From Actinomycetes bacterium (lineage in GTDB: Bacteria; Actinomycetota; Coriobacteriia; Coriobacteriales; UBA8131): DNA of 64,000 nt. A program made the translations under genes and the position numbers. This document shows, piece after piece, positions 1,401-20,956 of this stretch. Below the pieces are notes generated by a model. That model searched no databases and was not told the origin of the DNA. It saw only the letters and a list, made by a program, of their open reading frames with translations. How positions within the stretch are numbered: the first letter of the stretch is position 1; each line of letters opens with the position of its first letter. The stretch lies in assembly GCA_009787085.1 (NCBI GenBank), contig WRGR01000043.1, forward strand, positions 1 to 64,000, written 5' to 3'.

Positions 1401-2372
1401 TCAGGACGGCGACGTGTTAAAGCAGCTGATCTGCTCGGCCAGGAGACGTTCATGCTCTTCACGAGACGACGTGATCAGCTCGAACACCAAGTATTCCGGG
1501 TTGATGTAGTCGATTAGCGCCGGTATGCGGTCTGAGACGAAGGGCTGGTGACTGTCTACCTTCAAAACGTGGCCAAGCACCGCCAATGCCCGGGTTTGAT
1601 AGTCGCCACTGACAGTGAATGGCCGGTCGATGACGCTTTTGGCGTACTCGCCGCTGAGGCTTTGGTGCAGGTGCACGCCCTTGATGAAGTCCAGGTTGTC
1701 GTAGCGGCTCAGGACTTGGTAGATATAGTCGATCCCCTCATCCAGACTGCGCAGTGCCAAGTTGGTGTGCAGCAGATGGCCAACATCCAGCATCACGCCG
1801 CAGTTCGGGTAATCGACTGACTGCAAGAGGCGGTCGACGAGCTCTGGGCGTTCCATGGTCAGCCCTGACCAGAAGAGGTTCTCAAACAGCAGCGTCACTC
1901 CCCAGCCGGGGTCGCTGAAAACCTGGTTAGCCAGCTCGATCTGGGCAGTGATGACCTCCTCGTCGGTGCAGACATGCTGGCGTGTGATGCAGCTCTCTAT
2001 TGTCACGTCGGAAACATGCATTACCGCATATTCCGGATGATAACGGTTCAGGAAGGCGATGTTTTCCTGGAAGGTGGCAACAATCGCCTGTTGGTCGCGG
2101 CCACCGAACACCTCTTGCACAGCATCCCAGTCACGGTACTCGGCCAAGGCGGTCGGCACGTCGCCGTTCCAGATGCTCACCCAGTGGTGGAAGTACTTGA
2201 GGTGGACGCCGACCACATCGTCAGCGGCGACGATCCCCCTCTCATCGGTGCCACCGGCCATCAGCTCCAGGCCGTCCAGATCGAACTTGCGCAAGGCTTG
2301 CTTCAAGTCGGCGTTGCTGGAGTAGCGCGGCAGGTCAAAATGGGTGGTAGTCATGTTCATCAGCTTTTTCAT
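1401..2372 (-). CDS. Sugar phosphate isomerase/epimerase-like TIM-barrel protein
   Basis: A 323-residue protein of the AP-endonuclease-family-2/xylose-isomerase-like TIM barrel group. Features include an early LDGLELMAGG, a central metal-ligand stretch TLLFENLFWSG with a Glu, then GVMLDVGHLLHTN and FIKGVHLHQS, which carry the Asp/His residues that normally bind a divalent metal in this fold. Its ATG overlaps the stop of the upstream chelatase-like gene by four bases (ATGA), so it is the last cistron of the riboswitch operon. A second ATG six codons in is a possible start. Nothing in the sequence names a substrate; its presence beside CobN-like chelatases is not explained by any pathway I know. 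Confidence 0.65.
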   Translation of the reverse strand: MKKLMNMTTTHFDLPRYSSNADLKQALRKFDLDGLELMAGGTDERGIVAADDVVGVHLKYFHHWVSIWNGDVPTALAEYRDWDAVQEVFGGRDQQAIVATFQENIAFLNRYHPEYAVMHVSDVTIESCITRQHVCTDEEVITAQIELANQVFSDPGWGVTLLFENLFWSGLTMERPELVDRLLQSVDYPNCGVMLDVGHLLHTNLALRSLDEGIDYIYQVLSRYDNLDFIKGVHLHQSLSGEYAKSVIDRPFTVSGDYQTRALAVLGHVLKVDSHQPFVSDRIPALIDYINPEYLVFELITSSREEHERLLAEQISCFNTSPS

Positions 2373-5300
2373 CGCAAACCTTCCATCATGGTAAGGTCCG
2401 TTAGCACAGGCGGTGCCCCGGCGGCCTGAACGGCAACCTTGTCGCCTGTAGCCTGCGCCGCGCCTTTCGCGAACTCCGCCTTCTTCTGTTGCGCAGCCCC
2501 CGCTTGCGCCGCCCGCTCTGATACCAACTGCTCCACCTCCGCCAACCGCTCATGCCAGCCCTGGACATCGGCATCGTTTTGGATCACCAAGTTGCCGGCC
2601 TGTATCTCACCAGCACTCTCCAAGCCTTCCTCCATCTCGCCCTCGACGACCAGGTAATTGGCCTTCAGCCTTTCCAGGACATCCTCATCCGGCCTCCACT
2701 TCCCCCTGGTGTACAGCTCCAGCAACCGCCGGGAGATCTCCTCCAAGGCAAAGCGGTTGTTCTCTGCCAACCATTCCCGCATCTGCTCATCGTTGACATA
2801 TTGCTCGGCCAGCCTGTCCAGCAGCTCGTCAGCCAAGCTGTCCGTAACGCATTGGGCGGAGAAGACCGACTGCATCATGAACATCAAATCAGAGGCTCCG
2901 TCGTAGCCGCGCTCTTGGATGCTCTGCTGCCAGAAGGCGTTGAGCAAGGTGCTTTCGATGTTGCGGTGCAAGTTGTCAGACAAAGGCTCCGTGACTATCT
3001 GACGGCCGCATTCGCTGGTGCTTTGGTACTGGCGGACATCTTTGTTAGCGAAACACTTGCCGACCAGCCGAAAACCGCCCTGCACCTGAACCCCGAAGTT
3101 CTCCGAGACCGAGTTCACCCGCCGCGATGAGGTGGTATCGCAGGTCAGGTCGGCCCGACAGGCGACCGCGATGAACTCACTGACCCGCTTTTGGCCGTCT
3201 AGCCCCTGCCCATAGGCAAAGGCCGAGGCATCGATGAAGTACTTGGCCAAGTCGCTCTCGTCTTTCCAGGCACTGGCCAGCAGCGCCAGATCAACCCCGG
3301 CGCCATAGGTGCCGGGCGCATCGCCGAAAACCCGGACAGTGCCGCGCCGCTCGTCGCCGCCAGCGAGCCCTGAGCAGCCGCCATCGCCGTCCACTGCTGC
3401 CCCGACCGTGGCTTGGCGGCAATGTTTGAGCACGTAGTTCTGGGAGTCGTCCTCATCTAGAGCCGCAACCACCAACACGGCGCTGTCCATCATCGCCACT
3501 GCTGTCGGCCAAGTATCCCGCAACACACCGGAAATACGCACGGTAACATCGATGCGCGGGCGGCCGAGCTCTTCTAGCCCGATGGCCTCCAAGCCTATCA
3601 CCCTTCCCAACCTGTCCCAAAGCGGCCGCACTCCCAGCAGGTAGAGGAACTGGGAGAGCTGCTCGCCGTTAGTGCGCGTAACGTCCAAAGAGATCATGTT
3701 CATAGCCACCTGCTCGGGCAGCTTGCCCTCGTCTTGGCGGTAGCACTCCAAAAGCTGCTCGGCCAGCTCTTGGCCGCGCTGGTAGGCGGTCCGAGACGGC
3801 ACCTTGTCGATGTTCAGGCCGAAGATGTTGCGACCGGTGGGCAAGATGTTGCGGCCGTTCTCATCCGGCATGCCGCTCTCGCCCGAGGGCAGGTAACCGC
3901 CGTCTAGGGCACGTAGGACCATCTCCAGCTCCTCTGCGGTCTGTAGCAGCCCTGCCCTAATCTGGTCAGCGCCTGGCATCTCCGGATCGTACTCGCAGCC
4001 GTCGCCGTAGCAGACCTCGCGAATATAGTCCTCCATCGCCGCCGCGTCGGGAACCTGCCCCAAAACATGCAGGGAGCTAACATTTTGCGCTTGGTCGATA
4101 GCGTGGATAGCATCGGCCAGCGCCAGCAGCCCAGCCTCGAAGCCATCGGCGGCCCCCATGATGCGCTCTGCACCCGGCACACCTTCTAAAAGTAGGCGGA
4201 TCTCCTGCTCAGCAAGCCCCGCTTGGCTGTTCGCCATGGATTTAGCCTGGAAGTAGTCGTCGATGCGACGCAGCAGCTGCCTTTGCGAGTCATCGGCTCC
4301 CCGGCTAGGCGGTGGCAGATGGCCGCTGATGACCGAGTGCATACGCCGTTTGACTATCAAAGACTCGTTGACCACACCGGTGTGATAGATATAGATGCTC
4401 GGCATGAAGCCCAGCACCACCGTTGGCCAACAGAGCTCCGAAAGGCCGTTGGCCTTGCCCGGCAGGTATTCCAGACTGCCGTCAGTACCCATGTCTATCA
4501 GGGCATCAGCCTCTAGCACCCGCTCGATATAGCGGTAGCTGGCCAAGTACTGGTGGGGCGGCGGACAGGCCGGGTCGTGCAGTATCTTGCAGACCTCGCC
4601 GGTGCATTTGGCACCATAGCAGCCGCGTTTGGGCTGAACCATCAGCGTCACATTGCCGAAGGCCAAGCCGGTGACCACCAAGCCTCCCTGATAGACCAAA
4701 CCTTCGCCCGGGTACTCGCCCCAAGTCGCCAGCATCGAGCGCTGCAGTTCCTCTGGCAACTCGGCAAAGAAGCCCTCATATTCACCGGCTGCTGGCATCA
4801 GATAAAGGCAGCCGCCAGCGGCCACGATGTCTTCGACCGCCGTCCAGCGGAAGTCCGAGAAGGCCTTCTTCTCCATCAGCAGCGCCAGCAGATCTTGGCC
4901 GGAGTGCGGGTATTCGCCCAAGTCATAACCGGCCGCTTGCAGCCGCTCGAAAAGCCGCACGACACTGGTCAGACAGTCCAAGCCATAACCCTTGCCGATC
5001 GTTGCCTCCACCCCCGAGCAGACCGAGTTATGCAGCATCACCACGATTTTCTTCTCGGCGTTGGGCTTGCTGCGCAGGGCCACCAGCTTGCCTATCCGAC
5101 CGGCCAAGAAGCTGACCCGTTCGGGCAAGGCCTGGTAGTAGCCGTCGTCGCTGTTGAGCGTGGCGATGATCGCCGGCTCAATGCCGCCGGCCATCTCCGG
5201 GGCGATCAGGGCGCTGGGCATGTCGGCGACGAGCGGCACGTGAGCCGCCCGCCACTGCTCTGCCGTCAGAAAGAAGCTCTGGACAGGGTTCAGCACCGGT

Positions 5301-6235
5301 ATGCCCAGCCGTGAGTATTCCCAGACGGCCTGCTCACGCAGGCTACGCCCGGCCTCGGCGCGGGTCGAGAACAGTTGCAGGTTCACCAACAGCTCGATTT
5401 GCAGCTCACCGGCCACTGAGAAGTACCTGTCACAGATCTCGCCAAAGCCCAAGCTGTTAGCATCGGCACTGGAGAAGGCCAAGATGGTGCCGATACCTTG
5501 GCCTTCAAGCTCGGCGACGAGCTGCTGCGGTGCCGACATGTCGCCGCGCAACCACTGTGAGCGGTGCAGCAAGAGGCCGACATAGCGCGAAAAGCGACGG
5601 GTGCGGGCATCGAAGTATTGCTGAAGCGAGCCATAAACCGCTTCTTGATCTAAAGATGCGGCGGTCGATGCTGTTGCCCTCGGCTGTGAGCTAGTACAAG
5701 CCGCGTTTTCCCTCACCGGCGCAGCGAAAGATTGCGGCTCAAGCCCGCAATGACAGGGTTCGGACATTGACCGGCGCGTCTCTAGACCCAGTATGCCGTC
5801 GAAGGGCATGCCTAGCGGCTCGGGCACCTCGCCCAAATCGGCCTCGCCAAGCAGGTGCTTTCGTAGATAAAGGCCGGCGTTGGCGATGTTGGCGGCACCG
5901 GAGTTCAAAAGGTAGCGGTTAACCGCCTCAACGTGCTCTGGAGCAACACTGGCCACCCCCAGCAACATGGCCTCGCCGCCGACTGGCAACACCTGGGCCT
6001 GGGGCGGCAAGGACTTATAGAACTCTTCCTGGAAAAACTCCATAGACACGAAGCGGAACAGCAGCAGTGGCCGGGTGTTCTGGCAGGCTCGCTGGACTTG
6101 CGATGCGGCCTCCGAAAGGCATTGGCGGCTCTCCACATCGGCAGTGCTGAAAGAGGTCAGATCGATGCCAGCAGCGGCGAAGCTATCTGTCCAGAGCCGA
6201 CACTCGTCTTCCATGCAAAAACAAAACACCTGCAT
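2369..6235 (-). CDS. Divergent CobN/ChlH-type chelatase large subunit (paralogue 1)
   Basis: A 1288-residue homologue of the large, porphyrin/corrin-binding subunit of class I chelatases (CobN, ChlH/BchH). The start was set at 6235 because that ATG shares one base with the upstream TGA; the longer frame only shadows the upstream gene. It keeps PGTYGAGVD and the GSLEYLPGKA region but reads MGTDGSLEYLPGK near residue 580, where the neighbouring copy and typical CobN read MGTHG, so a conserved His is Asp here. The stretch equivalent to DMLDSDDFFNYHGG in the partner is replaced by NSVSENFGVQVQGG (about residue 1045). Residues about 150-195 hold an in-frame palindromic repeat insertion, and the C-terminus is a low-complexity Ala/Gln/Glu tail. 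A non-catalytic or altered-specificity partner of the next subunit is inferred. Confidence 0.85.
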   Translation of the reverse strand: MQVFCFCMEDECRLWTDSFAAAGIDLTSFSTADVESRQCLSEAASQVQRACQNTRPLLLFRFVSMEFFQEEFYKSLPPQAQVLPVGGEAMLLGVASVAPEHVEAVNRYLLNSGAANIANAGLYLRKHLLGEADLGEVPEPLGMPFDGILGLETRRSMSEPCHCGLEPQSFAAPVRENAACTSSQPRATASTAASLDQEAVYGSLQQYFDARTRRFSRYVGLLLHRSQWLRGDMSAPQQLVAELEGQGIGTILAFSSADANSLGFGEICDRYFSVAGELQIELLVNLQLFSTRAEAGRSLREQAVWEYSRLGIPVLNPVQSFFLTAEQWRAAHVPLVADMPSALIAPEMAGGIEPAIIATLNSDDGYYQALPERVSFLAGRIGKLVALRSKPNAEKKIVVMLHNSVCSGVEATIGKGYGLDCLTSVVRLFERLQAAGYDLGEYPHSGQDLLALLMEKKAFSDFRWTAVEDIVAAGGCLYLMPAAGEYEGFFAELPEELQRSMLATWGEYPGEGLVYQGGLVVTGLAFGNVTLMVQPKRGCYGAKCTGEVCKILHDPACPPPHQYLASYRYIERVLEADALIDMGTDGSLEYLPGKANGLSELCWPTVVLGFMPSIYIYHTGVVNESLIVKRRMHSVISGHLPPPSRGADDSQRQLLRRIDDYFQAKSMANSQAGLAEQEIRLLLEGVPGAERIMGAADGFEAGLLALADAIHAIDQAQNVSSLHVLGQVPDAAAMEDYIREVCYGDGCEYDPEMPGADQIRAGLLQTAEELEMVLRALDGGYLPSGESGMPDENGRNILPTGRNIFGLNIDKVPSRTAYQRGQELAEQLLECYRQDEGKLPEQVAMNMISLDVTRTNGEQLSQFLYLLGVRPLWDRLGRVIGLEAIGLEELGRPRIDVTVRISGVLRDTWPTAVAMMDSAVLVVAALDEDDSQNYVLKHCRQATVGAAVDGDGGCSGLAGGDERRGTVRVFGDAPGTYGAGVDLALLASAWKDESDLAKYFIDASAFAYGQGLDGQKRVSEFIAVACRADLTCDTTSSRRVNSVSENFGVQVQGGFRLVGKCFANKDVRQYQSTSECGRQIVTEPLSDNLHRNIESTLLNAFWQQSIQERGYDGASDLMFMMQSVFSAQCVTDSLADELLDRLAEQYVNDEQMREWLAENNRFALEEISRRLLELYTRGKWRPDEDVLERLKANYLVVEGEMEEGLESAGEIQAGNLVIQNDADVQGWHERLAEVEQLVSERAAQAGAAQQKKAEFAKGAAQATGDKVAVQAAGAPPVLTDLTMMEGLR
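5690..5765. repeat. Dispersed palindromic repeat copy inside the divergent cobN
   Basis: The core at 5727-5754 is the reverse complement of GTCATTGCGGGCTTGAGCCG plus CAATCTTT, the same core found near 21475 and 35575. TGTGAGCT and GTACAAG just to its left also occur in the copy at 55676-55778. Read on the minus strand it is translated, giving the residues CHCGLEPQSF, and it keeps the frame open. Confidence 0.7.
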
Positions 6236-9200
6236 CAACTGTCCTCCAAGTCTCCTTCGACCGAGAGGTAGATCTGCCTGATCTGCTCCAGCATCTCCTC
6301 GTCGGCATCCCACATGCCGCGCTGGGCGGCCTCCAACAGCCTCTCGCTGATCGCCTGCAGCGCCCAGGGGTTGTTCTCCCTGATCCACTCCTGCAGCTCA
6401 TCGTCCAGCAGGTAGGTCTGGGTGATGGAGTCATACATCCAGTCATCGACCACGCTGCTGGTGGCATCCCAGCCGAAGACGATATCGACCATCGCTGAGA
6501 ACTCCTGGGCACCGCGAAAACCGTGTTGCTTTAGGCCCTCGATCCATTGCGGGTTGTTGATGCGTGCCCGCATTACCCGCGAAGTCTCCTCGTGGATGGT
6601 CTTAGTTTTGACGTGCTCGGGGTCGCCGGCATTGGTGGCAAAAGACATCGGCAAACTGCCGCGCTTAGTTTTCACCGCACTGATCAAGCCACCGTGGTAG
6701 TTGAAGAAGTCGTCGCTGTCCAGCATGTCGGACTCTACAGACGAGACGTTTTTGACAGTGGCATCGCAGGTGGCCAAGCGTCGCGAGAAGACCTCTTCCA
6801 GCTTGGCACCCTGCACCTTCTTGCCATAGGCGTAGGCACCCCAGTTGATATAAGCTTGGCCGAGGTCGGCATCTGTCTGCCACTGCTTGGAGTAGATCAG
6901 AGTGTCGACACCGGCGCCGTAGGTGCCGGGCGGGTCGCTGAAAACCCGGTAACGGGAATACTCGAAGGCTTGTTCGTGCTGCATACCGGCGGCGATGAAG
7001 TCCCTGAAGTCGGCCATGACGTGCTTCTTCACGAAGTTTTGCGCCTCGTCTTCATCCAGTGCGGCCACCAAGTTGACCGCGTCCTCAATACGCTCGATGA
7101 GGTTGGGGAAGGTGTCTCGGAAAAGCCCGCTGATGCGCAAGGTGACATCGATCCGCGGGCGGCCGAGTTCTTCTAAGGGGATAACCTCAATATCGATCAC
7201 CCGGTTGGTGTTGCCCAGCCAAACCGGGCGCACACCGTAGAGGTACATGATCTCGGCGATGTCGTCACCGTTGGTTTTGATGGTCTCGCCGGAATAGACG
7301 ACTATCGCCACGCTCTCCGGAAACGCCCCCTCGTCTTGCTGATAGCGCCAGATCAGCTGGTCGGCCAGCATTCGCCCGGTCTGCCAACTGCTGCGACTGG
7401 GAATCATGGTCGGGTCGACCATGTAGAAGTTGCGGCCAGTGGGCAGGATAGTGGCATTGCCGCGGCTAGGGGCACCGGAGGGGCCGGGCGGCACGAAACG
7501 TCCGTCGATGCCGCGCTCCAAGTAGAGCAGCTCGTCGGTGGTACGGTCAAGCCGGGGCTGAAGCTCAGTGGCCACGAAGCGCAAACAATCGATGAGCGGC
7601 TGGAGGTTTGGGGCAAGAGCAGAGGGCTCGCCGCCCACGACCGAAGTGATGTCCCCCTGCCCTGCCGCCGCGCCATCCGTTCCGTTGCCAGATACCGGCC
7701 CGCTATCAGTGCCATCTGGGCCGCCGCCAAAAGCCAGCGACTCGGCGACGGCCTTAGCGGCCTCGGCATCCAAGCCGACCTCGGCAAAGGCCGTAAAGGC
7801 CTGCCGCCCCAGCTCGTCTAACTCTTCCAACAACATGGCGTTGCTCTGCCCATCTGCCGCTCGGCGATCAGGATGGCACAACAGGTCTTCTAGGTCATAG
7901 CCACGCAGTGCCGCAACACCCTCCCGGATCGACGGGACATCGCCGTTGCGCACATTGACCAGCAGACGCAACAAGTTCAGGTAGCGTTGGCCACAGGGCA
8001 CCGCCCCAAAGATATGCAGACCGTCTTTGATCTTGCTGGACTTGATCTCACTGATCCAGAGGTGCATCTGTTCGATGGCCGCCTCCGGGTCGGCAAAGAA
8101 CTGCTCGGCACTGAGGCCGAGGTCGCAGTGCAGGTCACATTCCGCGGCCATTGCCCAAACCTGCTCGGCAATGACGCTGCACTTGCCCGGGTCGGCCAAG
8201 GCCGCCTGCTGGTACTGGGCAATCTGCTCCTCCACCCCGGCCAGCTCGCCATAACTGCCGCTCTCGGTCATCGAGGGTATCAAGTGGTCGATGATCACGG
8301 CATCGGTACGCCGTTTAGCCTGGGCGCCCTCCCCCGGCACATCGATGATATAGGGGTAGATGTGGGGCATCTCGCCGATGGCGATGTCCGGGTAGCACTC
8401 TTGGGACAGCGCCACCTCCTTGCCGGGCAGCCATTCGATGGTGCCATGAGTGCCCATGTGGATAACCACATCGGCTGCGAATACTTGATCTAGGTAGCGG
8501 TAAAACGCCAGATACTGCCAGGGGCAGACGATATCCGTGGAGTGGTAGGCTTCCTCGGCCTGCTCTTCCAATGCCCGGGGCGGCTGCAAGCCGATGAACA
8601 GATTGCCATTGATGATCCCCGGCACCAGTATTTGCTCGTCGACTACCATGAATTCGCCGGGCATCTCACCCCAGTCCCGCTCCAGCTCGCTTTGGGACTT
8701 TGGGGGCAACTCGGCAAAAAACCGCCGCCAAGCGTCCGGAGCGACAGCAGCCGTACTGCGCTCAAGCATCTCGGCCTCAGACAAGAAGCGCCCGTCGTTG
8801 GTCACCCCATCGGTGATCTTTTTGATGATCTCCTGGCCTTCGGCAAAGGCATACTCTAGTGTCAGCCCCTTGCCCTGCAACATCTTGAAGACATTGAAGA
8901 CCGATTCCGGGGTGTCCAGGCCATAGGCACAGCCGATCATGTCTGCCCGAGGCGGCATGTTGTGCAGAACAATTGCTACTTTCTTGTCACTGATTGCTGT
9001 CTTACGCAGCTTCGCCCACCGCAAGGCAATGCGCACAACCCGCTGCACCCTGTCAGCTATCGGCCAAATCTCGTATTTAGTGCCGTATTTAGTCTGAACT
9101 GCCTCTGAGTAGCCGATAGCTACCGTGATCACTTGGCCGTCGAACTCCGGCTGAAAGACATTGCAGCCAAGCAGGATGGAATCCACACCAGCCAAAGCAT

Positions 9201-10089
9201 CATGCCATTGCTCGTAGCTGAAGTAGGTGAACATGGCTTGGAGCACCGGCACGTCGAGCGCCTCGAAGATGCTTTGCTCCACCTTGGTGCTGCCGTCTCC
9301 GGGCGCGGCGAGGATGCTTAGGGAGAAGCCCGAGGTGACGATGACGGCATCGACCAGGGGCTTGCCATCACGCAGCATGTACCTCTTCAAAGCACCTGCC
9401 AGTCCAGATGTCTCGTTGGCCAGCGGCGCGATGTTGGAGTACATGACCAGTGGCACCCCGCCCTGATCGCTGATCGCCTCGATCAAGGCCTCGACATGGC
9501 GCATGTTGTCGTGTTCCAGCTGATAGCGGTGGACTATGATGCCGATCACCGGCTTGTCGGTTTGGACAGCAATACTGTCTAGGTACTCGGCCTCACTGAC
9601 CCCTTCGGGCAGGCCATAAAGACCCTCCCATTTCGGCACCACCAACTCCGGCAAGGGACAGTCCAAGCCACCTAGATCGGCAAAGACGACGCTCAGAAAA
9701 CCTTTTAGGTTATCCGAGCCGCCCATCAAGTGATAGGGCATCAGCTTGTCATGGATCACCGGCGAAAGGGCGGAGCGCTGGCGCATCTCGTTGTTCTCGT
9801 CATCGATGCCGGTGTTTATAAATGAGGGCGTCTTGCCAAGGAAGGCCTTCTGCAAGAAGTTGAAGCGCTTGAAGTAGGGCAGCCCGCCCTGACTGTAGAG
9901 GTAGACGAAATCGGCAGTCTCCAAAGCCTTGAGACAGGCCGTACAGACATCCTGGTTGTCGTCGATCTCTGACGTGTCGAAGAACTCGGCGGCAATGAGA
10001 TTTCCTAAGCTCTCTTGCAGTTCGGCGAAGGCCTGTCGGAAAAACAGCTCCTTGCCGTCATAGTTGATGATGAAGACAGTTTTAAACAT
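6235..10089 (-). CDS. cobN: CobN/ChlH-type chelatase large subunit (paralogue 2, canonical)
   Basis: A 1284-residue class I chelatase large subunit, the tetrapyrrole- and metal-binding partner of the ATPases encoded upstream. Canonical CobN motifs are visible: LHNMPPRADMIG with YGLDTPESV (about residue 375), MGTHGTIEWLPGKEVALS (about 545), LPTGRNFYMVDP, PPGTYGAGVDTL, and DMLDSDDFFNYHGGL (about 1125). It starts 15 bases after the ABC-2 permease stop and its TGA overlaps the ATG of the divergent paralogue. Family knowledge: CobN inserts cobalt into hydrogenobyrinate diamide with ATP hydrolysis by CobS/CobT or ChlI/ChlD-like ATPases. Cobalamin-riboswitch control supports a corrin substrate, but no other biosynthetic cob/cbi genes lie in the window, so salvage, metal exchange or removal is as likely as biosynthesis. 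Confidence 0.9.
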   Translation of the reverse strand: MFKTVFIINYDGKELFFRQAFAELQESLGNLIAAEFFDTSEIDDNQDVCTACLKALETADFVYLYSQGGLPYFKRFNFLQKAFLGKTPSFINTGIDDENNEMRQRSALSPVIHDKLMPYHLMGGSDNLKGFLSVVFADLGGLDCPLPELVVPKWEGLYGLPEGVSEAEYLDSIAVQTDKPVIGIIVHRYQLEHDNMRHVEALIEAISDQGGVPLVMYSNIAPLANETSGLAGALKRYMLRDGKPLVDAVIVTSGFSLSILAAPGDGSTKVEQSIFEALDVPVLQAMFTYFSYEQWHDALAGVDSILLGCNVFQPEFDGQVITVAIGYSEAVQTKYGTKYEIWPIADRVQRVVRIALRWAKLRKTAISDKKVAIVLHNMPPRADMIGCAYGLDTPESVFNVFKMLQGKGLTLEYAFAEGQEIIKKITDGVTNDGRFLSEAEMLERSTAAVAPDAWRRFFAELPPKSQSELERDWGEMPGEFMVVDEQILVPGIINGNLFIGLQPPRALEEQAEEAYHSTDIVCPWQYLAFYRYLDQVFAADVVIHMGTHGTIEWLPGKEVALSQECYPDIAIGEMPHIYPYIIDVPGEGAQAKRRTDAVIIDHLIPSMTESGSYGELAGVEEQIAQYQQAALADPGKCSVIAEQVWAMAAECDLHCDLGLSAEQFFADPEAAIEQMHLWISEIKSSKIKDGLHIFGAVPCGQRYLNLLRLLVNVRNGDVPSIREGVAALRGYDLEDLLCHPDRRAADGQSNAMLLEELDELGRQAFTAFAEVGLDAEAAKAVAESLAFGGGPDGTDSGPVSGNGTDGAAAGQGDITSVVGGEPSALAPNLQPLIDCLRFVATELQPRLDRTTDELLYLERGIDGRFVPPGPSGAPSRGNATILPTGRNFYMVDPTMIPSRSSWQTGRMLADQLIWRYQQDEGAFPESVAIVVYSGETIKTNGDDIAEIMYLYGVRPVWLGNTNRVIDIEVIPLEELGRPRIDVTLRISGLFRDTFPNLIERIEDAVNLVAALDEDEAQNFVKKHVMADFRDFIAAGMQHEQAFEYSRYRVFSDPPGTYGAGVDTLIYSKQWQTDADLGQAYINWGAYAYGKKVQGAKLEEVFSRRLATCDATVKNVSSVESDMLDSDDFFNYHGGLISAVKTKRGSLPMSFATNAGDPEHVKTKTIHEETSRVMRARINNPQWIEGLKQHGFRGAQEFSAMVDIVFGWDATSSVVDDWMYDSITQTYLLDDELQEWIRENNPWALQAISERLLEAAQRGMWDADEEMLEQIRQIYLSVEGDLEDS

Positions 10090-10104: not shown

Positions 10105-10833
10105 TTACTCGCTACGTTGGCAGAGTTTGATGGCAATCGGCGTTAACACCAACATGTAGATGCCTAGTACTAAGATGACAATCAGGCTGCCCTCGGCCGC
10201 AAAGCCGTCGCGCATCCCCTTGACCGCCTGGGTCAGCGGCAACAGCTCGAAAAAGACCCGCAAAAACCCGGGGAACTTCTCCAGCGGAAAAAAGGTGCCG
10301 CAGAGAAAGGACATCGGCACGATCACGAAATTGGATATTTTGGCCATATCGGCATGGGAGTCCACCAAAAGACCGATGATAAAGCCAATGACCGCGAAGA
10401 CCAAACAGTTCAACACCAAGACCAGCAAGAAGTACCAGTCGATCGGCAACCAGACTTGAAAAGCAAAGGCTATCAGGATGATCAGGACGGCGCTGTAGAC
10501 GCCGCGCAGGGCGCTGGTGAGGATGCGGGCCGAGGAGTAAGTAGACATCTTGATCGGTGCCACCATCACTGCCTCGAAGGTCTTAGCATAGATGCGCGAG
10601 AGGTTAATGTCGTTGGCCACCCAGTTGTAGCTGGTGGTCATGGAGTTCAGAGCAACTATGCCGGGTATCACAAAGGCCGTGTAGCTGATGCCGTCGACCA
10701 TCACCGCACTGCCAATGCCCCAGCCAAAAGCCACCAGGTAGAGCAAAGGGCCAATGATAGCGGCCAAGGTGGTGGAGACGATCCGGCTTTTGAAAACCAT
10801 CCACTCCTTCCAGATAATTGCGCTAAACCTCAT
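10105..10833 (-). CDS. ABC-2 type transporter permease
   Basis: A 242-residue integral membrane protein of the ABC-2 (drug/polysaccharide export) family with about six hydrophobic segments, including LAAIIGPLLYLVAFGWGIG, LIILIAFAFQVWLPI and LVLNCLVFAVIGFIIGLL, and the family motif region VPMSFLCGTFFPLEKFPG followed by LLPLTQAVKGMRD. Its ATG overlaps the end of the ATPase gene by 11 bases, so the two form one transporter. Members usually export lipids, drugs or small molecules. Its place between cbiZ and the two chelatase subunits suggests export of a tetrapyrrole or metal species, which is inference only. Confidence 0.85.
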   Translation of the reverse strand: MRFSAIIWKEWMVFKSRIVSTTLAAIIGPLLYLVAFGWGIGSAVMVDGISYTAFVIPGIVALNSMTTSYNWVANDINLSRIYAKTFEAVMVAPIKMSTYSSARILTSALRGVYSAVLIILIAFAFQVWLPIDWYFLLVLVLNCLVFAVIGFIIGLLVDSHADMAKISNFVIVPMSFLCGTFFPLEKFPGFLRVFFELLPLTQAVKGMRDGFAAEGSLIVILVLGIYMLVLTPIAIKLCQRSE

Positions 10834-11674
10834 CGTTTCCCCCTAGATCGCGGTTCGTCAGGCTGATAAAGGCATCTTCCAGGTTGGCCTCGCGTACCTT
10901 GAAGTCGCCTTGGACATTACGGGCGGCAGCAATCGCCGACTCCTTGTCAGCGAAGAACTCCTGGCTGGTATGGCCGTCAGAGAAGTATTCCAAGACGTAT
11001 TGGCCAACGCCGCTGATGATGTTTTGCGGGGCATCAGCCAATACCAGCCGACCGGCATCGATCAGGCCGACCCGCTCACAGAGGATCTGCGCCTCGTCTA
11101 GGTAATGGGTGGTCAGAAAGATGGTCAGGCCTCTCGCCTTGATCTGGCGCAACAAGTCCCAGATGCGCCGCCGCACAGAGGCATCCAGACCGACTGTCGG
11201 CTCGTCGAGCAGCAGGATCTGCGGGTCATGCATCAGTGTCTTGGCAATCATCAATTTGCGTTGCATGCCGCCGGAGAACAGCCTGGCCGGGTCGTTTTGG
11301 CGCTCAGTCAGCTCGGCGAACTCCAATAGCTCATCAATGCGACGGCGACGGGCGGCTCTGGGGATGCCGTACAGGCGGCCGTGGTACTCGAGGTTCTCCC
11401 AAGCGGTCAGCTCGCCTTCCAAATTGCTGTACTGCGGCACCACACCGATCTTTTGCTTGACCTTCACCAAATCGCGATGCAGCTGCTCGCCGTTGACAGT
11501 GATCACCCCGGAGCTGACGGGGGTCAGTGCAGCTGTCATTCTCATGATAGTGGTTTTGCCAGCGCCGTTAGGCCCCAGCAAGCCGAAGAACTCGCCTTCC
11601 TTGACCTCAAGGTTCAGGCCGACGACAGCTGCCGTTTGCCCGTAGCTCTTGCAAACGTCCTTATAGCTGATCAT
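10823..11674 (-). CDS. ABC-2 type transporter ATP-binding protein
   Basis: A 283-residue ABC ATPase (DrrA/CcmA-like) that pairs with the overlapping permease. Walker A is LGPNGAGKTTIMRM (about residue 35), the signature LFSGGMQRKLMIAKTL, Walker B ILLLDEPTVGLD, and the switch histidine FLTTHYLDEAQ. I chose the ATG at 11674: it is preceded by GAAGG, and residues upstream of it only shadow the C-terminus of cbiZ, which it overlaps by 14 bases. The C-terminal third (LEYFSDGHTSQEFF to LEDAFISLTNRDL) is the usual DrrA-like accessory domain. Confidence 0.9.
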   Translation of the reverse strand: MISYKDVCKSYGQTAAVVGLNLEVKEGEFFGLLGPNGAGKTTIMRMTAALTPVSSGVITVNGEQLHRDLVKVKQKIGVVPQYSNLEGELTAWENLEYHGRLYGIPRAARRRRIDELLEFAELTERQNDPARLFSGGMQRKLMIAKTLMHDPQILLLDEPTVGLDASVRRRIWDLLRQIKARGLTIFLTTHYLDEAQILCERVGLIDAGRLVLADAPQNIISGVGQYVLEYFSDGHTSQEFFADKESAIAAARNVQGDFKVREANLEDAFISLTNRDLGGNDEV

Positions 11675-12923
11675 CCGGGCCTTCGTCTCTTGTTTCAGCA
11701 CCGGGGACAGGCGGTACGGCAATGCTGTCTGCATCCGGGTCGGCAGTGATGGCGACGGTGGTTTCTGGAACCGGCCGGCCATCCGGCTCATCACCTTGGC
11801 CGTCGCCTGAGCCGACGACCGAGGCATCTGCCGTGATCATCGCCACCAGCCCCTTGACCACAGCGGCCAGTATCTGGTGCAGGGCTGCCGTGGTATCCTC
11901 GGCACCTGTACCCCCCACGACTCCCATGCCCAAGGCGGCAAGCTGCACATCGGCGGCAGCCATGGCCTCAGACGGCGAGATCAGCCCCCAGAACATTTGG
12001 TCAAGCAGATGGGCAATTAGTGACATTTGAGTGAGCACGGTACCCTGGCTGAGCCTTGCTTCCAGCCGTTCCTCGAACCAAGCCTTGTTCAGGCTGGCTG
12101 CTGCCTGTTCAGCATAGCGCTCAAAGAGCAGGTCATCGGTAATACCGAAACGGCCGAGGCGGCGCAGAACACTGTGCTGAAGCTCGGCTGACAGGCCGGT
12201 CTGAAGGAAGAGCGCCTCTTTGAGCGCCTCTTTGACCGTGATGCCGATCAGCTCCCCTAACTTGACATGCTTGCCGGCATTCTCCAACCGCACTGGGGAG
12301 TCGGCATTGGCCACGATGATCGTGCCGTCAGTGCCGGAGCCGGTGGCCAGCCCCATCGAGTAACGGCTGGGTGCCATCAGTTCCTGCAAGGCCGCGGTCT
12401 TGGCCTCAGTGCAGGTAACCAAAGACCTGACCAAGGCACCCTCGCTCAAGTCCATGTTGATGTGCAGGATGATGTTGATGGTGCCATGGCCGGGCTGGAC
12501 AAGCGCCTCTTCGGAAAACTCATCCCAAGCTGCCGGATCGCCAGCCCGACCACCGTTGACCTCGACACCGCCGGTGACAATGGCCGTCACCGTTAGGTCT
12601 TTGTAGCTTTTGGACTTGATCGCGACGTTCTCCATCTGGGCGGCAGTGGTGATGCCAGAGGCGGTATCGGGGTCCAAGCCCAACCGTCGGGCAAGCAAGA
12701 TGACATGCTCTTGGTAGGTCGGAGCTATCAGGTCGGCGGCCATGCCGGCTCCGTTGGTGCCATCGTTGTTGAACACGGCAGTCAGGTTCTCGCGCAAGCC
12801 GCCGTTTTGCGGCCCGGTACTGAGCACCTTCCGTTGGCCGTTGAAAAACAAGACGATGGACTTTTTGTAGAAGTGGACTTCCTCGCCTGTGCACAATCTG
12901 CTTAATAACATTGTCTTCTCCAT
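11661..12923 (-). CDS. cbiZ: Adenosylcobinamide amidohydrolase CbiZ
   Basis: A 420-residue CbiZ-family protein. Family members hydrolyse the aminopropanol amide of adenosylcobinamide to adenosylcobyric acid, the entry step of corrinoid salvage and remodelling. The family block lies at about residues 95-235: KDLTVTAIVTGGVEVNGG, GTINIILHINMDLS, SLVTCTEAKTAALQEL, and ATGSGTDGTIIVANAD. The remainder (about 240-335) is helical, and the last roughly 80 residues are an acidic Pro/Asp/Gly-rich tail unlike the core. It begins one base after the chlD-like stop. It is the clearest functional marker that this operon processes corrinoids. An internal ATG at 12911 is an alternative start. Confidence 0.88.
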   Translation of the reverse strand: MEKTMLLSRLCTGEEVHFYKKSIVLFFNGQRKVLSTGPQNGGLRENLTAVFNNDGTNGAGMAADLIAPTYQEHVILLARRLGLDPDTASGITTAAQMENVAIKSKSYKDLTVTAIVTGGVEVNGGRAGDPAAWDEFSEEALVQPGHGTINIILHINMDLSEGALVRSLVTCTEAKTAALQELMAPSRYSMGLATGSGTDGTIIVANADSPVRLENAGKHVKLGELIGITVKEALKEALFLQTGLSAELQHSVLRRLGRFGITDDLLFERYAEQAAASLNKAWFEERLEARLSQGTVLTQMSLIAHLLDQMFWGLISPSEAMAAADVQLAALGMGVVGGTGAEDTTAALHQILAAVVKGLVAMITADASVVGSGDGQGDEPDGRPVPETTVAITADPDADSIAVPPVPGAETRDEGPDDQL

Positions 12924-12924: not shown

Positions 12925-14868
12925 TCACCTTAATCTACTGACTACTTCCACTATGCCCTCGGCTTTCAGCTCTTCCATGCTGACCAAGGTTCCATGCAGC
13001 TTCTCATTGAGTTTTTGGCAGAGCCTGAACTTGATAAAGTCGTTTTCGGTGTCCATGACTATCGTGTTGATGTTCTGGTTGCCGATTCGCTCGGCAGCCA
13101 GCAACGCTTGATTGAAAGGATTGGCGGCGGCGCGTTTGCCGCTGGCCCGGCCATCGGAAACCAACACCAAAGTCGGCAAGACATCTGGGTCTTTCATCCT
13201 CAAACCCATGATCACTTCATAGGCCAAGTCCAGTCCGGCGGCCAAGGGTGTCTTGCCGCCGGTCGGCAGCAGCTCCAGCTGCTTTTGTGCCAAATCGACC
13301 GAGCGGGTGATGCCCAACAGCAGCTCGGCGCGGTCTTGGCGAAAGGCGATCAGCCCTACCTTGTCCCGCTTTTGGTAAGAGACGTTCAACATCGACAGAA
13401 TCGCCGCCTTGACCTCTTTCATCCGCTTGTTGGCGCCCATCGAGGCGCTGGCATCGACCACGAAGAGGATAGTGCTGCCGCTACGCTTCTCGCGCACTTT
13501 GATGCGCAAATCGTCGTGCTCGATGGCGATGGCCCGCTGCCCCTTGCAACGCAGCTTCTGGAATGCCGCAGCGGCACGGATAGTGGCATCAAAGGCCAAG
13601 TCAGAAACCGGCTCTTGGCCAGCCAGACGGTATTTCACGTAGCGCCCCTGACGGTTGTTGGACTTCACCAGATTGCGCTTGCCAGAGCCCTTGTGGATGA
13701 CCCGCAAGGCTGGCGGCACCGTCCAGCGGGGGATCAGATAAGCCTCGCCGGCCGCTTGCAGGTCGTCAGTTGCCGACTCGTCGGCCGGCTCCGCGCCCGA
13801 CTGTTCGTCGGTCGGCTCGGCGGCCGGATCAGTGGAGCCGGACGGCTCGCCAGGCTCCGGCCCGGCGCACTCGGGCAGCGCTGGCGGCTGCTCGGCATCT
13901 TCCGGTGGCCGCTCATCTGGGCTGTCCGACTCCAGCGGCGGGCTGTCGTCGTCTTCCATCATCTCCTCTTGGAGCTCCTCGGGGGGCGGCTCAGGAGGCG
14001 GTGCCGACTCGGGGGGCGACATAGCCTGAACCCGGTGGGACAAGGCATACTCGCCAGCTGCCTCCAAGTCATCAAGGTTGATCATCCGGCGGCCGGCCAG
14101 AGCAGCGATCGCCCGGGCAGTCTCCACCAGGGTTATCTCGCCACGATGGCCGGCGCAGTTGGCCTTGGCCGCCAGCGTCGCCGCCATCCGCAAGGCGTTG
14201 GCCGTCACCTCGACCTCAGCTAGCAGCAGACGGGCTTGACTGATCTGTTCGGCTAGGGCGACAGTCTGATTGGCGTAGCTGTCCACAAAAGCTGCCGGGG
14301 CAGCATCGAAGGCCAAGCGGCGCTGGACTATCTCTGTTCGCTGGTGCAAGTCGGACTCACCGTCAACCTCTACATAGAGGCCGAAGCGATCCAGCAGCTG
14401 AGGGCGCAGCTTGCCCTCTTCGGGGTTCATGCTGCCGATCAGGATAAAGCGGCTGAGGTGCGCCGTCGATATTCCCTCCCGCTCGACGTGGTTGACACCA
14501 CTGGCCGCAACTTCCAGCAAGGTGTTGACGATGTGGTCGCTAAGCAGGTTGACCTCGTCAATATAAAGCATATTGCCGTCGGCGCGCTTCAAAATGCCCG
14601 ACTCCAACTGACGCTGGCCGAAGAGCATGGCCTGTCTGAAGTCGATCGAACCGACCAGCCTGTCCTCCGTGACGTTCAGGGGCACCTCGACAATCACCAA
14701 GTCGCGGCTCAAGGCGGCGCTGCTGCGCACCAAAGTTGACTTAGCTGTACCTTTCTCGCCACTGACCAGTACTCCGCCGATGCGCGGGTTGATAATGTTG
14801 TAGATCAGTGCATTTTTCACCTTCTCTTGACCAAGCACGGCCACGAAGGGGAATACCGTCCTGTTCAT
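12925..14868 (-). CDS. ChlD/CobT-like chelatase ATPase with VWA domain
   Basis: A 647-residue protein with an N-terminal AAA+ domain (Walker [14 protein letters not shown], sensor region YIDEVNLLSDH and IGSMNPEEGKLRPQLLDRF), an acidic proline-rich linker at about 300-395, and a C-terminal von Willebrand A domain whose MIDAS motif is FVVDASASMGANKRM (about residue 471). This is the layout of the ChlD/BchD subunit that couples the ChlI-like ATPase to the CobN/ChlH subunit. Unlike most ChlD proteins its AAA+ Walker A looks intact. I chose the ATG at 14868, preceded by AGGAG; upstream residues lie in the intercistronic repeat. It precedes cbiZ by one base. Confidence 0.87.
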   Translation of the reverse strand: MNRTVFPFVAVLGQEKVKNALIYNIINPRIGGVLVSGEKGTAKSTLVRSSAALSRDLVIVEVPLNVTEDRLVGSIDFRQAMLFGQRQLESGILKRADGNMLYIDEVNLLSDHIVNTLLEVAASGVNHVEREGISTAHLSRFILIGSMNPEEGKLRPQLLDRFGLYVEVDGESDLHQRTEIVQRRLAFDAAPAAFVDSYANQTVALAEQISQARLLLAEVEVTANALRMAATLAAKANCAGHRGEITLVETARAIAALAGRRMINLDDLEAAGEYALSHRVQAMSPPESAPPPEPPPEELQEEMMEDDDSPPLESDSPDERPPEDAEQPPALPECAGPEPGEPSGSTDPAAEPTDEQSGAEPADESATDDLQAAGEAYLIPRWTVPPALRVIHKGSGKRNLVKSNNRQGRYVKYRLAGQEPVSDLAFDATIRAAAAFQKLRCKGQRAIAIEHDDLRIKVREKRSGSTILFVVDASASMGANKRMKEVKAAILSMLNVSYQKRDKVGLIAFRQDRAELLLGITRSVDLAQKQLELLPTGGKTPLAAGLDLAYEVIMGLRMKDPDVLPTLVLVSDGRASGKRAAANPFNQALLAAERIGNQNINTIVMDTENDFIKFRLCQKLNEKLHGTLVSMEELKAEGIVEVVSRLR

Positions 14869-14910
14869 GATCTGCTCCTCTAAAAGCCGAAACGGGCTGG
14901 GTCTTGAACC

Positions 14911-15047
14911 CAAGGAGATGCCGATTAACTCACAATTCCACCCCACACGGCTCCGGTCCACAATCTTTTCCCCGGTTGATCATGGGAAAAGATTGCCACC
15001 CGGAGCCGACTATGACTGCAGTTTGGAGATTAATCGGCACCGCCCTA
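14911..15047. repeat. Palindromic repeat element A between btuF-like and chlD-like genes
   Basis: The left end reads AAGGAGATGCCGATTAA and the right end, on the opposite strand, TAGGGCGGTGCCGATTAA. Inside is a 12-bp perfect inverted repeat CAATCTTTTCCC (14961-14972 with 14984-14995, loop 11), extended by CGGCTCCGG on both sides. The first three bases of the right end (TAG on the minus strand) are the stop codon of the btuF-like gene. As an intra-operon hairpin it could attenuate transcription or stabilise mRNA. Confidence 0.8.
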
Positions 15048-16295
15048 GTCCGGCAGTTTGATGATCAGCGACAACTTGTGGTTGCCCGCAATGTCCGGAT
15101 GGGCGATGGCCACCATGTCTTGGAACAGCACATCCTTGTCAGCAGAACGCATATAGTAATCCGAGGCGAAAATGTAAACTTGGCCGTTTTTGAATGCCTT
15201 CAGGTCGGCGAAGAGCGGGTCCTCCTTCAAAAGTGCTGCTTTGTTCGGCGTGTACATCAACAAGCCGGAGTAGACTAGGATGTCAGCATTGCGGGCCCGG
15301 TTGAAGAACTCCTCCCTACCGATGTTCAGATTGCCCTCGCTGGCCAAGTCGGTCAGGTAGTACTTAGCACCGGCCTTGGAGAGTTCTTTGGCGGTGGTGG
15401 AATCGCTGCTCTGGGTATAGACAGTGCCGTCATAGAGCATGGCGTAGGCCAGCACCGGACGCTCGGCATCCGGTACATTGGCGACCTTTGCCGCCAAATC
15501 CTTCATCGCCGCGATCTTGGCCTCGAAGACCTGATCGGCCAAATCGTCTAGGTTATAGAATGCCGCAAAGAACTTGACCCACTCCAAATAGGCTTCACTG
15601 CTTTTCTCCAGCCAGTCACCTTCAGAAACATAAGGCAAGCCGACTGCGTCATACTGGGAGAGCTTGCCTCGTTCCGGAGAATAGGTGGTGAACACCATAT
15701 CTAAGTTCATGCCCAGCATGGTCTCGGCATCGGCAGTGCCCCAATTATCGGTTTTGACATATTTGATCTGGCCGCTCTTGAAGCGCTCGATGACCTGCGG
15801 GGTGGTCCATTCATTTTCCTCTGTGGCCACTCCGACTATCGAGTCATAGATCGAGTCCACCCCCAGAGAGCCCAGTAGGCCGATTTGAGGCGTCGAACCG
15901 AAGAAGACCCGACTGATCGGTGTACGCACCAGCGTCTTGTCCTCATAGCCGGCAGGAACTGCTGCCTCCTTGGGCACCAACAACAGTTCACGGCCTTCAG
16001 TATCGGTTACCAGTTTGACCCCGTTGTCCATGTATTGGATCTTGAAGCCGGTGGCATACTCCACCCCCAGCTGGCTTTGCTGGCCTGGGGATGGCTGCTG
16101 TCCTGTGCTCGTGGTCGGCTGGTCGCTGGCTGCCCCCGATGAGCAGCCGCTGACCGCCAGACAGGCCAGCAGGGCGGCCAACAGCACTGACAGCAGCGCA
16201 TGGGAAAGCCCTTTGCCCTTTAATGCCCTTGGCTTTACAGTCCGATTTTTCGATGTTGCCTGTTCCGATATTGATTGCCTTGTCTTCCCGTTCAT
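15045..16295 (-). CDS. Corrinoid/siderophore-type ABC substrate-binding lipoprotein (BtuF-like)
   Basis: A 416-residue extracellular binding protein of the BtuF/FepB class. After a basic N-terminus there is a hydrophobic stretch ending LACLAVSGCSS, a good lipobox with the lipid-bearing Cys near residue 51, then a Ser/Gln/Thr-rich spacer. The mature part has the two-lobed periplasmic_binding_2 pattern: GSTPQIGLLGSLGVDSIYDS, METMLGMNLDMVFTTYS-like segments, and the C-terminal VYIFASDYYMRSADKD. It overlaps the radical SAM gene by four bases (ATGA) and belongs with the BtuC and BtuD genes upstream. Its TAG stop is supplied by the terminus of repeat element A. Riboswitch control favours a corrinoid ligand. 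Confidence 0.82.
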   Translation of the reverse strand: MNGKTRQSISEQATSKNRTVKPRALKGKGLSHALLSVLLAALLACLAVSGCSSGAASDQPTTSTGQQPSPGQQSQLGVEYATGFKIQYMDNGVKLVTDTEGRELLLVPKEAAVPAGYEDKTLVRTPISRVFFGSTPQIGLLGSLGVDSIYDSIVGVATEENEWTTPQVIERFKSGQIKYVKTDNWGTADAETMLGMNLDMVFTTYSPERGKLSQYDAVGLPYVSEGDWLEKSSEAYLEWVKFFAAFYNLDDLADQVFEAKIAAMKDLAAKVANVPDAERPVLAYAMLYDGTVYTQSSDSTTAKELSKAGAKYYLTDLASEGNLNIGREEFFNRARNADILVYSGLLMYTPNKAALLKEDPLFADLKAFKNGQVYIFASDYYMRSADKDVLFQDMVAIAHPDIAGNHKLSLIIKLPD

Positions 16296-17506
16296 ACTTG
16301 CTCCTCCTGCTTCTCTTTCTCTATCAACTGATACGCTGTCTTTCTCATTACACAGTCCAACATGTCAAAACCGCCGTTGAGCAGGCCGCGCGAGGGGCAG
16401 CCGCCGGGGCAGATCGCCCGGTAACGGCAGCTGACACAGGCCTTGGGGCACTGGCAGCTCAAGGCCAACGGCTGGACTGAGGAATGCACATTTCCCATCT
16501 GGTAGTTCTCGTCTAACGCCAAACTGCCGCAGGGGCAGCAGCCACCGTTCGGCAGCACCACGAAAGAGCGTGCCAGTGCCGCGTAACAGTAGTTGCGAGA
16601 CAACATCTGCCCAGATGGGGATGGCAAAATGGCCTCGGGCGCTGGAGCTGGCAGAAACGTTGGGGCGGCTGGGGCCGCGGCCACAGCTGCGGTCGTTGGG
16701 GCGGCTGGGGCCGCGGCCGCGATCGCCAAGGCCGCAGATGGAACCGATGCCGCCAGGGCCGCCGCTTGGTTCATTGCCGCCCGGGCGCGTTCAAACTCCC
16801 GCACCCGAATCTTATGGGACAACGCAAAATTCAACGCAGAATTGACCTTCCGCAGGTAGCGGTAAAGCAGTCGCAGGGCATCTCGAAGAGCCGCCTCGGT
16901 GGCCGGCCCGGTGCCGACAGGCTGCTGCTGGCCTTGTTCGGCCGCCGTAGGCTTAGCCGCTGCCCGCCCGCTTTTCCGGAGCAGATCCAAGCCAATGCCA
17001 TGGATATTGCCGAAATACAGTGCCATATCCACCAGCCCGGTCAGGCTGCCGACGTTGAAGTCGGAAACCACGGCGTTGAGGTTGGTGGCCAAGCCATGCT
17101 CAGCCAACAGCTTGATTCCCCGGGCGGTCTCCAAGCTGTTGCCCCGCAGGTAGTCGTTGACCTCTGGACGGCCATCTAAACTGACACCGACAGCAATACG
17201 GAAGCGCTTGAGCAGCTGCACTGCCTTCTTGTCTATCAGGGTGCCATTGGTTTGGATGGCAAACCGGACATCTCTCAGCCTCGTAGCGGCATACTCACAG
17301 ACCGCTTCGACCAAACCGACGTTCAGCAAGGGCTCACCGCCGGCAAACTGGATGGTCAAAGGCCACTCGCCCATCAGATCGATCGCTTGCTTGGCAGTTT
17401 TAAAGTTCATATCTTCTTGCGACACTCCGGCGGCATAGCAGTAGCGGCAGCGCAAATTGCACCTGCCGGTCGCCCAAAGCACCAATAATGACCGCATCTG
17501 AGGCAT
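16292..17506 (-). CDS. Radical SAM protein with SPASM-like C-terminal cysteines
   Basis: A 404-residue radical SAM enzyme. C16, C20 and C23 form the CX3CX2C site for the SAM-binding [4Fe-4S] cluster (GRCNLRCRYCYAAG), followed by FAGGEPLLN and the strand motif FAIQTNGTL. The C-terminus carries many cysteines (NYCYAAL, GGCCPCGSL, CQCPKACVSCRYRAICPGGC), the layout of a SPASM/twitch auxiliary-cluster domain. Between them (about residues 270-335) is an Ala/Pro-rich insertion made partly of duplicated GC-rich DNA. The start was set at 17506, one base after the btuD stop. SPASM proteins usually modify peptides or proteins; no precursor peptide gene is visible. Its job in a corrinoid operon is unknown to me. 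Confidence 0.82.
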   Translation of the reverse strand: MPQMRSLLVLWATGRCNLRCRYCYAAGVSQEDMNFKTAKQAIDLMGEWPLTIQFAGGEPLLNVGLVEAVCEYAATRLRDVRFAIQTNGTLIDKKAVQLLKRFRIAVGVSLDGRPEVNDYLRGNSLETARGIKLLAEHGLATNLNAVVSDFNVGSLTGLVDMALYFGNIHGIGLDLLRKSGRAAAKPTAAEQGQQQPVGTGPATEAALRDALRLLYRYLRKVNSALNFALSHKIRVREFERARAAMNQAAALAASVPSAALAIAAAAPAAPTTAAVAAAPAAPTFLPAPAPEAILPSPSGQMLSRNYCYAALARSFVVLPNGGCCPCGSLALDENYQMGNVHSSVQPLALSCQCPKACVSCRYRAICPGGCPSRGLLNGGFDMLDCVMRKTAYQLIEKEKQEEQV

Positions 17507-17507
17507 T

Positions 17508-19933: not shown

Positions 19934-20956
19934 CTAAACCCCCTCGATCATCGAGATGTCAAACTCTACTTCCTCAAACGGCCGGCGGCGCATCCTGTGA
20001 GGCAACGCCAGCCTAGCCGCTTGCAGCACATCGTCTTCCCGCACTTCCGTACGACCGTCAAAAGCCGCCAGTGTCCGGGCAGTCTTCAGCATCACGATAT
20101 CTGCCCGATGGCCGTCAACGTCAAGGGCAATGGAGATCCTGGCGATTCTCGCCAGTATCTGATTGGAGTAAGTAACGCTGTCTAAAAGCTCTTCTGCGCG
20201 GGTAATGCGCTGTCGCAATTCTTGTTGTTTAGGTTGATATTCGGCAAAAAAAGCGTCTGGATCGTCCTCATAGCGCAGACGGTTCTCAATTACCGAGACG
20301 CGCTTATCGATATCCCGCTCGCCAACGACCGTCACAGACAGCCCGAAGCGGTCGATCAGCTGGGGTCGCAAGTCACCCTCTTCAGGATTCATCGTCCCGA
20401 CCAGCATGAAGCGGGCAGGATGCATGTAGGAGACACCCTCGCGCTCCACCGTGTTCACCCCCATGGCCGCCGAGTCCAGCAAAATATCGACAACATGGTC
20501 ATCGAGCAGATTAACTTCGTCAACGTAGAGGATATTGCGGTTGGCCGCCGCCAAGATACCCGGCTCGAACTTCTTCTCCCCGGTTTTGATCGCATACTCC
20601 AAGTCCAAAGTGCCGACCACCCGGTCCTCGGTGGCACTGACTGGCAGCTCTACGACTTTCATCACCGAGCTGGTGGTTTCTAGTGTCTCGCCCTGCGCCA
20701 CCCGTTCGGCGCATTCACTGCACATCTGGCTTTCATCTTGCGGATCACATCCGAAGCGGCAAGATGCCACTTGCTGCCGCTCGGGCAACAGCTCAGCCAA
20801 GGCACGCACTGCTGTGGATTTAGCCGTGCCCTTCTCGCCTCGGATCAAGACTCCCCCCAAGCCAGGGTTGATAACGTTTAAGACCAAGGCGGTCTTCATG
20901 TCATCTTGCCCGACTATGGCGGTAAAACAATACGACTTCTTCAACTGCTCTGACAT
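19934..20956 (-). CDS. ChlI/BchI-like chelatase AAA+ ATPase
   Basis: A 340-residue AAA+ ATPase of the magnesium-chelatase I-subunit family. It has Walker [17 protein letters not shown] (about residue 40), a cysteine-containing insert [15 protein letters not shown], the ChlI region [20 protein letters not shown], Walker [14 protein letters not shown] and [20 protein letters not shown]. The start is ATG 20956, preceded by GGGGAG at six bases. It is the first gene after the riboswitch and terminator. With the ChlD-like protein it would form the ATPase motor acting on the CobN-type subunits encoded about 10 kb downstream in the same operon. Confidence 0.88.

Follow-up and report, generated by a model that had tools for sequence, protein, structure and literature searches.

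The window (i.e. the whole 64,000-nucleotide stretch of DNA that was analysed) contains a run of 12 minus-strand genes extending from position 21004 to position 1401, with no gap longer than 162 bases (Table 1). Their order is ChlI, BtuC-like, BtuD-like, radical SAM, BtuF-like, ChlD, CbiZ, ABC-2 ATPase, ABC-2 permease, A, B and TIM barrel, A and B being two CobN-like genes. The riboswitch, the corrinoid-type transporter (its specificity assigned by similarity only), CbiZ and the chelatase genes are contiguous. This context is strong and, on sequence matches, the run is a riboswitch-controlled corrinoid-salvage operon. Two ABC transporter ATPase genes (window 3-1087, plus strand) converge on it, the second with a typical ABC_tran domain.

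Table 1. Features of the operon and of the A/B gene pair (window coordinates).
Feature	Position	Strand	Basis or remark
Cobalamin riboswitch	21145..21279	-	66.4 bits, gathering score 31.5; 140 bases ahead of first gene
ChlI/BchI-like AAA+ subunit, first gene of operon	19934..21004	-	TIGR02030 426.4 bits (cut-off 466.95), Pfam Mg_chelatase
BtuC/FecCD-type permease	18740..19771	-	top NCBIfam match BtuC 212.6 bits, below cut-off
BtuD/FecE-type ATPase, C-terminal extension	17508..18743	-	top NCBIfam match corrinoid ABC transporter ATPase 219.2 bits, below cut-off
Radical SAM protein, start codon uncertain	16292..17662	-	Pfam PF04055; no specific NCBIfam equivalog passed
BtuF/FecB-type substrate-binding protein	15045..16295	-	PF01497 65.9 bits
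ChlD-like AAA+/VWA subunit	12925..14961	-	TIGR02442 651.6 bits (cut-off 779.45); TIGR02031 411.4 (cut-off 499.55)
CbiZ, adenosylcobinamide amidohydrolase family	11661..12923	-	PF01955 191.4 bits, E 2e-56
ABC-2 exporter ATPase	10823..11827	-	domain/NCBIfam matches
ABC-2 exporter permease	10105..10833	-	PF01061
Copy A, canonical CobN-type large chelatase subunit	6235..10089	-	1284 aa; TIGR02257 score above cut-off
A His548 codon of MGTHG, equivalent of HmuS His-538	8446..8448	-	alignment
A motif DMLDSDDFFNYHGG, domain V, HmuS His-1209 region	6688..6729	-	alignment
Copy B, Cys-signature CobN-like protein	2369..6235 (including stop)	-	1288 aa; PF02514; Cys-family clade
B Cys406 codon, after first strand of domain III	5018..5020	-	31/31 family, 0/18 A-type; strand from model
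B Loop I block QPKRGCYGAKCTGEVCKILHDPACPPPHQ	4550..4636	-	Cys539, Cys544, Cys549 family-wide; Cys557 in part of family
B Asp585 codon of MGTDG, HmuS His-538 equivalent lost	4481..4483	-	alignment
B motif NSVSENFGVQVQGG in place of DMLDSDDFFNYHGG	3074..3115	-	alignment; Phe1047 at His-1209/Asp position
Xylose-isomerase-like TIM-barrel protein, last gene of operon	1401..2372	-	PF01261; neighbourhood group 17

The coding sequence of B occupies positions 2372-6235 (minus strand) and is followed by a stop codon at 2369-2371. The A/B junction reads ...GTTGATGCAG, in which the A stop codon TGA (6237-6235) and the B start codon ATG (6235-6233) have one base in common. A TGATG-like overlap was also found at the same junction in two related loci, L005 and L006. 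Both proteins matched the Pfam CobN-Mg_chel model (PF02514; 1204.8 bits for A, 846.9 bits for B), which bears out the original prediction of two overlapping genes of this type. The further claim that both are made at similar levels goes beyond the one-base overlap, which supports only co-transcription and possible translational coupling. A passed the cobaltochelatase CobN model TIGR02257 (935.3 bits, cut-off 822.05), a cut-off not reached by B (522.5 bits). Neither A (727 bits) nor B (512.3 bits) reached the cut-off of 829 of TIGR02025 (ChlH/BchH), and B stayed below all NCBIfam CobN/ChlH equivalog cut-offs. The two proteins are 28% identical.

The motif differences quoted in the original prediction are exact: A reads MGTHG and DMLDSDDFFNYHGG, B reads MGTDG and NSVSENFGVQVQGG, and B has no DSDD motif. 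In direct alignment, Asp585 of B fell on the catalytic His of M. tuberculosis CobN, HmuS, the 9UK9 CobN and ChlH alike. This axial His was present in 18/18 A-type proteins, in 26/26 B-family proteins outside the subclade of the window's B and in the solved homologues. Within that subclade (five members), the position reads D, D, D, F and H. The Asp-Asp pair was likewise present in 18/18 A-type proteins and absent from B. QVQGG and a Phe at the HmuS His-1209 position are common to the B orthologues of four other genomes and, given this sharing, the alignment indicates that the altered motifs of B are more than chance. In HmuS, His-538 is a cation ligand in a cleft gated by Loop I, and it appears strictly conserved across the superfamily according to the authors; de-chelation was abolished in the H538A variant, and heme binding elsewhere persisted (PMC12583661). 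The importance attached earlier to the changed positions was thus upheld, as both belong to metal-coordinating motifs. Free variation of these positions in active CobN proteins was also examined by alignment; it is not what was found, since the His is invariant (all 18 A-type proteins) and its replacement inactivates HmuS.

Relatives of B were searched in about 1,400 genomes, using B itself as the query and then a B profile. Many of the sampled genomes were metagenome-assembled, and Bacteroidota lay outside the sample. Sixty CobN-like reading frames were aligned and a quick maximum likelihood tree was computed (SH-aLRT support only), in which CobN-type and Cys-type clades stand apart with full support. 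The family of B is recognized by the signature HNxPC...VEA and QPKRGC-x4-C-x4-CKIL. Its four Cys (406, 539, 544 and 549 in B) were present in 31/31 B-family sequences and 0/18 A-type sequences, and were absent from solved CobN, HmuS and ChlH aligned directly with B. Most family members have CCC where CobN has D-D (DLFGCCCYFGTHGG). At this position B reads E-N-F; its subclade, which also comprises L005 (Coriobacteriia), L004 and L006 (Oscillospiraceae) and L007 (Eubacteriaceae), is without CCC and keeps the four Cys. Members of the family were found in anaerobic Bacillota, Actinomycetota and Thermoplasmata. By profile score, they are carried by about 20 of 398 sampled genomes of the phylum to which G413 belongs (G413 being related to the Eubacteriaceae genome that contains L007), and the profile search also found them in a few Actinomycetota and some Thermoplasmata. 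On this evidence, we regard B as a branch of an ancient, separate and widespread family marked by an invariant Cys signature. No description of this family, of its pairing with a canonical CobN or of an Fe-S or Cys-rich CobN was found in the openly licensed literature searched.

The A-B pair recurs across phyla. Both A and B of the actinobacterial pair group with Bacillota in the tree, which suggests that the pair moved between lineages as one unit. Divergences of A and B are correlated (r = 0.905, 13 genomes, 0/20,000 permutations), a result compatible with a joint function and also expected from shared inheritance or joint transfer. As synonymous sites were saturated, the comparison of dN/dS between the two copies was reduced to pN and pS. 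Between the window and L005, pN is well below pS for both genes (0.27 and 0.79 for B, 0.22 and 0.80 for A), and B is under clear purifying selection. A recent tandem duplication of A was ruled out by the separate deep clades and the 28% identity, and a pseudogene by the intact reading frame and the low pN of B. Decay of a duplicate of A, to which the altered motifs and an in-frame repeat element in B could point, is already refuted by these data together with the full support for the clade of B and the invariance of its Cys across phyla; we give it practically no chance of being correct. What stands of the altered-paralogue claim is a recurrent pair with changed metal motifs. B is not a locally degenerated copy, having its own clade, invariant Cys and relatives that mostly keep the His. 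The four invariant Cys, which are the strongest feature of B, and the operon context were both missed in the original prediction.

The repeat element is an insert of about 46 residues (B residues about 150-196; window 5648-5788, minus strand) that is missing from the B orthologues. It represents a dispersed repeat, inserted in frame, with the core CCTGTCATTGCGGGCTTGAGCCGCAATC and 47 matches in the 1.8 Mb genome. Further copies lie at C26:13760-13878, within the gene for cobyrinic acid a,c-diamide synthase, and inside the ORF at window 35570-35624.

Several variant forms were seen among the CobN-like sequences. In three Actinomycetota genomes (L157, at 9909-9911; L158, at 7281-7283; L159), the Cys-family gene consists of two reading frames that meet close to the domain IV/V boundary, with a TAA in two of them and overlapping frames in the third; this is perhaps a natural two-polypeptide version. 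In L172 (G985), an in-frame TAA at 11793-11795 directly follows CCC, where the near relative L178 has a Tyr, and may be a sequencing error or an inactive allele. L183, L184 and L185 (Thermoplasmata) form a CobN-like long branch beside the Cys family, without Loop I Cys and with FKDLEAN and DSCNYSYAGG motifs. A separate clade comprises the CobN-like proteins of L163, L164, L165, L192 and L193, which have 'GVLDNDDVYQYLGG'-type motifs. Most of these loci also contain small conserved genes (neighbourhood groups 9, 12 and 19), as in an hmu-like cluster.

The placement of the Cys was examined on an AF2 model of B (12 sequences, residues 196-1212, mean pLDDT 76.6). Loop I, the strand5/helix7 loop of domain III, acts as the gate of the central cleft of HmuS, CobN and ChlH; the published sheet order of this domain is 3-4-1-5-6-7 (PMC12583661). 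Loop I of B is five residues longer than in the solved homologues. In the model, Cys406 comes after strand 1, Loop I after strand 5 and MGTDG after strand 6. Because strands 1, 5 and 6 are neighbours in the published order, Cys406, Loop I and MGTDG would share one edge facing the cavity. The pLDDT of Loop I fell under 50 at model residues 346-353, and this was counted against the explanation preferred below.

With its metal motifs altered, B could be a pseudo-subunit, catalytically dead, with a scaffolding or regulatory role towards A, the Cys forming a structural (zinc) site. This would account for the replacement of the axial His by Asp or Phe in four of the five subclade members, for the loss of the Asp-Asp pair and for the overlap with A that is similar in L005 and L006, and it accords with the inactivity of HmuS H538A. 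However, most B-family members keep the His, so that the family in general is not dead. B itself retains the Loop I His and the equivalents of ChlH E625 and E660 (Glu589 and Glu624), both of which are mutated in ChlH PDB entries, and its Cys cluster would lie at the entrance of the cavity and not in some distant structural part. We consider a dead scaffold rather unlikely.

The surroundings of the pair were compared between loci. The order ChlD-CbiZ-ATPase-ABC2-A-B is also found in L005 and L006, and in L004 with one inserted gene. The TIM-barrel gene adjoins B in L005 too and lies elsewhere within the cassette in L006. A cobalamin riboswitch was detected in 8 of the 20 sources searched and precedes cassette genes in L154, L160, L167, L172 and L178. 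Two observations were counted against the preferred explanation: the L005 riboswitch is not ahead of the A-B pair, and no cobalamin riboswitch was found in the L004, L006, L156 and L162 stretches. A third is that some B-family proteins, i.e. that of L007 and those of several CCC loci, have no adjacent A, which implies that B is not only an A subunit. Genes with CCC, the four Cys and the His often stand without an adjacent A, beside ChlI/ChlD and the ABC-2 pair. They would fit a B acting independently of A, as an active chelatase or de-chelatase that handles another metal or ring (e.g. iron or nickel tetrapyrroles) through thiolate metal ligands, and HmuS shows that the fold is capable of de-chelation. 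Yet the CCC and the His are both lost in the window's B, and the riboswitch, CbiZ and the Btu-type transporter of the window point to corrinoids. We judge such an independent enzyme unlikely, and the different tetrapyrrole proposed in the original prediction is not favoured for the same contextual reason.

The genome encodes CbiD, CbiG, CbiF, CbiL, CbiH, CbiE/T, CbiC, CobB, CbiJ, CobD and CbiB, which belong to the cobalt-early route of B12 synthesis. Cobalt insertion comes at the beginning of this route and is catalysed by a class II chelatase (PMC7689651), so that CobN is not needed for B12 synthesis. That A, with or without B, is an ordinary late cobaltochelatase CobN of B12 biosynthesis would agree with its TIGR02257 score and with the B12 riboswitch of the operon. 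It is made very unlikely by the cobalt-early markers CbiD and CbiG and the methyltransferases of that route, and by the early insertion of cobalt; the markers found in the genome do not place A and B in the cobalt-late pathway. The presence of CobN-like genes in anaerobes with no need of CobN is an acknowledged open question (PMC12583661), and a salvage role has been suggested for such genes (PMC8305020).

The explanation that we prefer, tentatively and at a level somewhat short of an even chance, is a corrinoid-salvage and metal-handling cassette in which A and ChlI/ChlD act on the corrin metal and B is a Cys-ligated partner. The cassette would be switched on when B12 is short. Corrinoids would be imported by the Btu-type transporter and their side chain trimmed by CbiZ. 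A and the ChlI/ChlD motor (a class I chelatase machine) would then insert, remove or exchange the central corrin metal, and the ABC-2 transporter would export the product or a by-product. The four Cys of B, at the mouth of the same cavity, would most likely be ligands of one metal centre, such as a [4Fe-4S] cluster or a soft-metal site; as judged from the model, the site could instead be zinc. In a putative complex with A, B may reduce the bound corrinoid, or take or hand over the metal.

A more specific reading is doubtful in our estimate: the Cys-signature proteins would be iron-sulfur class I (de)chelatase subunits that, with canonical CobN and ChlI/ChlD, reductively strip or exchange the cobalt of salvaged corrinoids. 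We know of no enzymatic decobaltation of B12. As B is a member of an old Cys-signature family and not a broken copy, the cobalt of B12 may be handled in a yet-unknown way. Should a redox cluster be bound by the four Cys, class I chelatases would have members in which the insertion or removal of a metal is coupled to electron transfer, and cobalt removal from B12 would become directly testable. The recurrent two-subunit arrangement, the branch-specific Cys signature, the B12-switch operon and a published starvation-induced counterpart give a handle on the question of CobN-like genes in organisms that do not need CobN.

This counterpart, operon-2 of Dehalobacter restrictus PER-K23, seems by its gene content to be the closest precedent to the window operon. 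Under corrinoid starvation, the proteins of operon-2 were 46-fold more abundant on average, and a locus of Acetobacterium woodii is syntenic with it (PMC4285132). Like the window operon, it combines a cobalamin riboswitch, a transporter (Fep/Btu-type), CbiZ (two copies), CobN and magnesium-chelatase subunits. That paper names one CobN, without motif analysis; in the parts read, it makes no mention of the radical SAM, ABC-2 exporter and TIM-barrel genes that are found in the window. The kind of operon is thus already known, whereas the Cys-signature family and its pairing with canonical CobN are apparently undescribed.

Cobalt-late CobN (M. tuberculosis 7C6O, and 9UK9) is similar in fold (Foldseek TM 0.72 on query), domains and glutamates, and A also has its His and Asp-Asp. 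B differs from it by four extra Cys, a longer Loop I and the lack of both the His and the Asp-Asp pair, and the host genome is cobalt-early. ChlH/BchH, which functions with ChlI and ChlD, offers the same combination of a large subunit and AAA+ motor subunits in one operon. Unlike ChlH/BchH, B is without the His, and no photosynthesis genes were seen around the window operon. HmuS/BtuS (9D26) shares the class I fold and has no biosynthetic role; metal removal has been demonstrated for HmuS, and B. fragilis uses two paralogues, BtuS1 and BtuS2, in two separate operons (PMC12583661, PMC6460266). HmuS needs His-538 and has HFG(T/A)HG and LSLDHxxEFMGG; its further marks are a methionine-rich insertion, Met-79 and His-254. 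B has neither of the two motifs, whereas A has MGTHG but DMLDSDDFFNYHGG. The neighbourhood in the window is of the corrinoid type and not an hmu operon and, in contrast to BtuS1 and BtuS2, A and B overlap within one operon.
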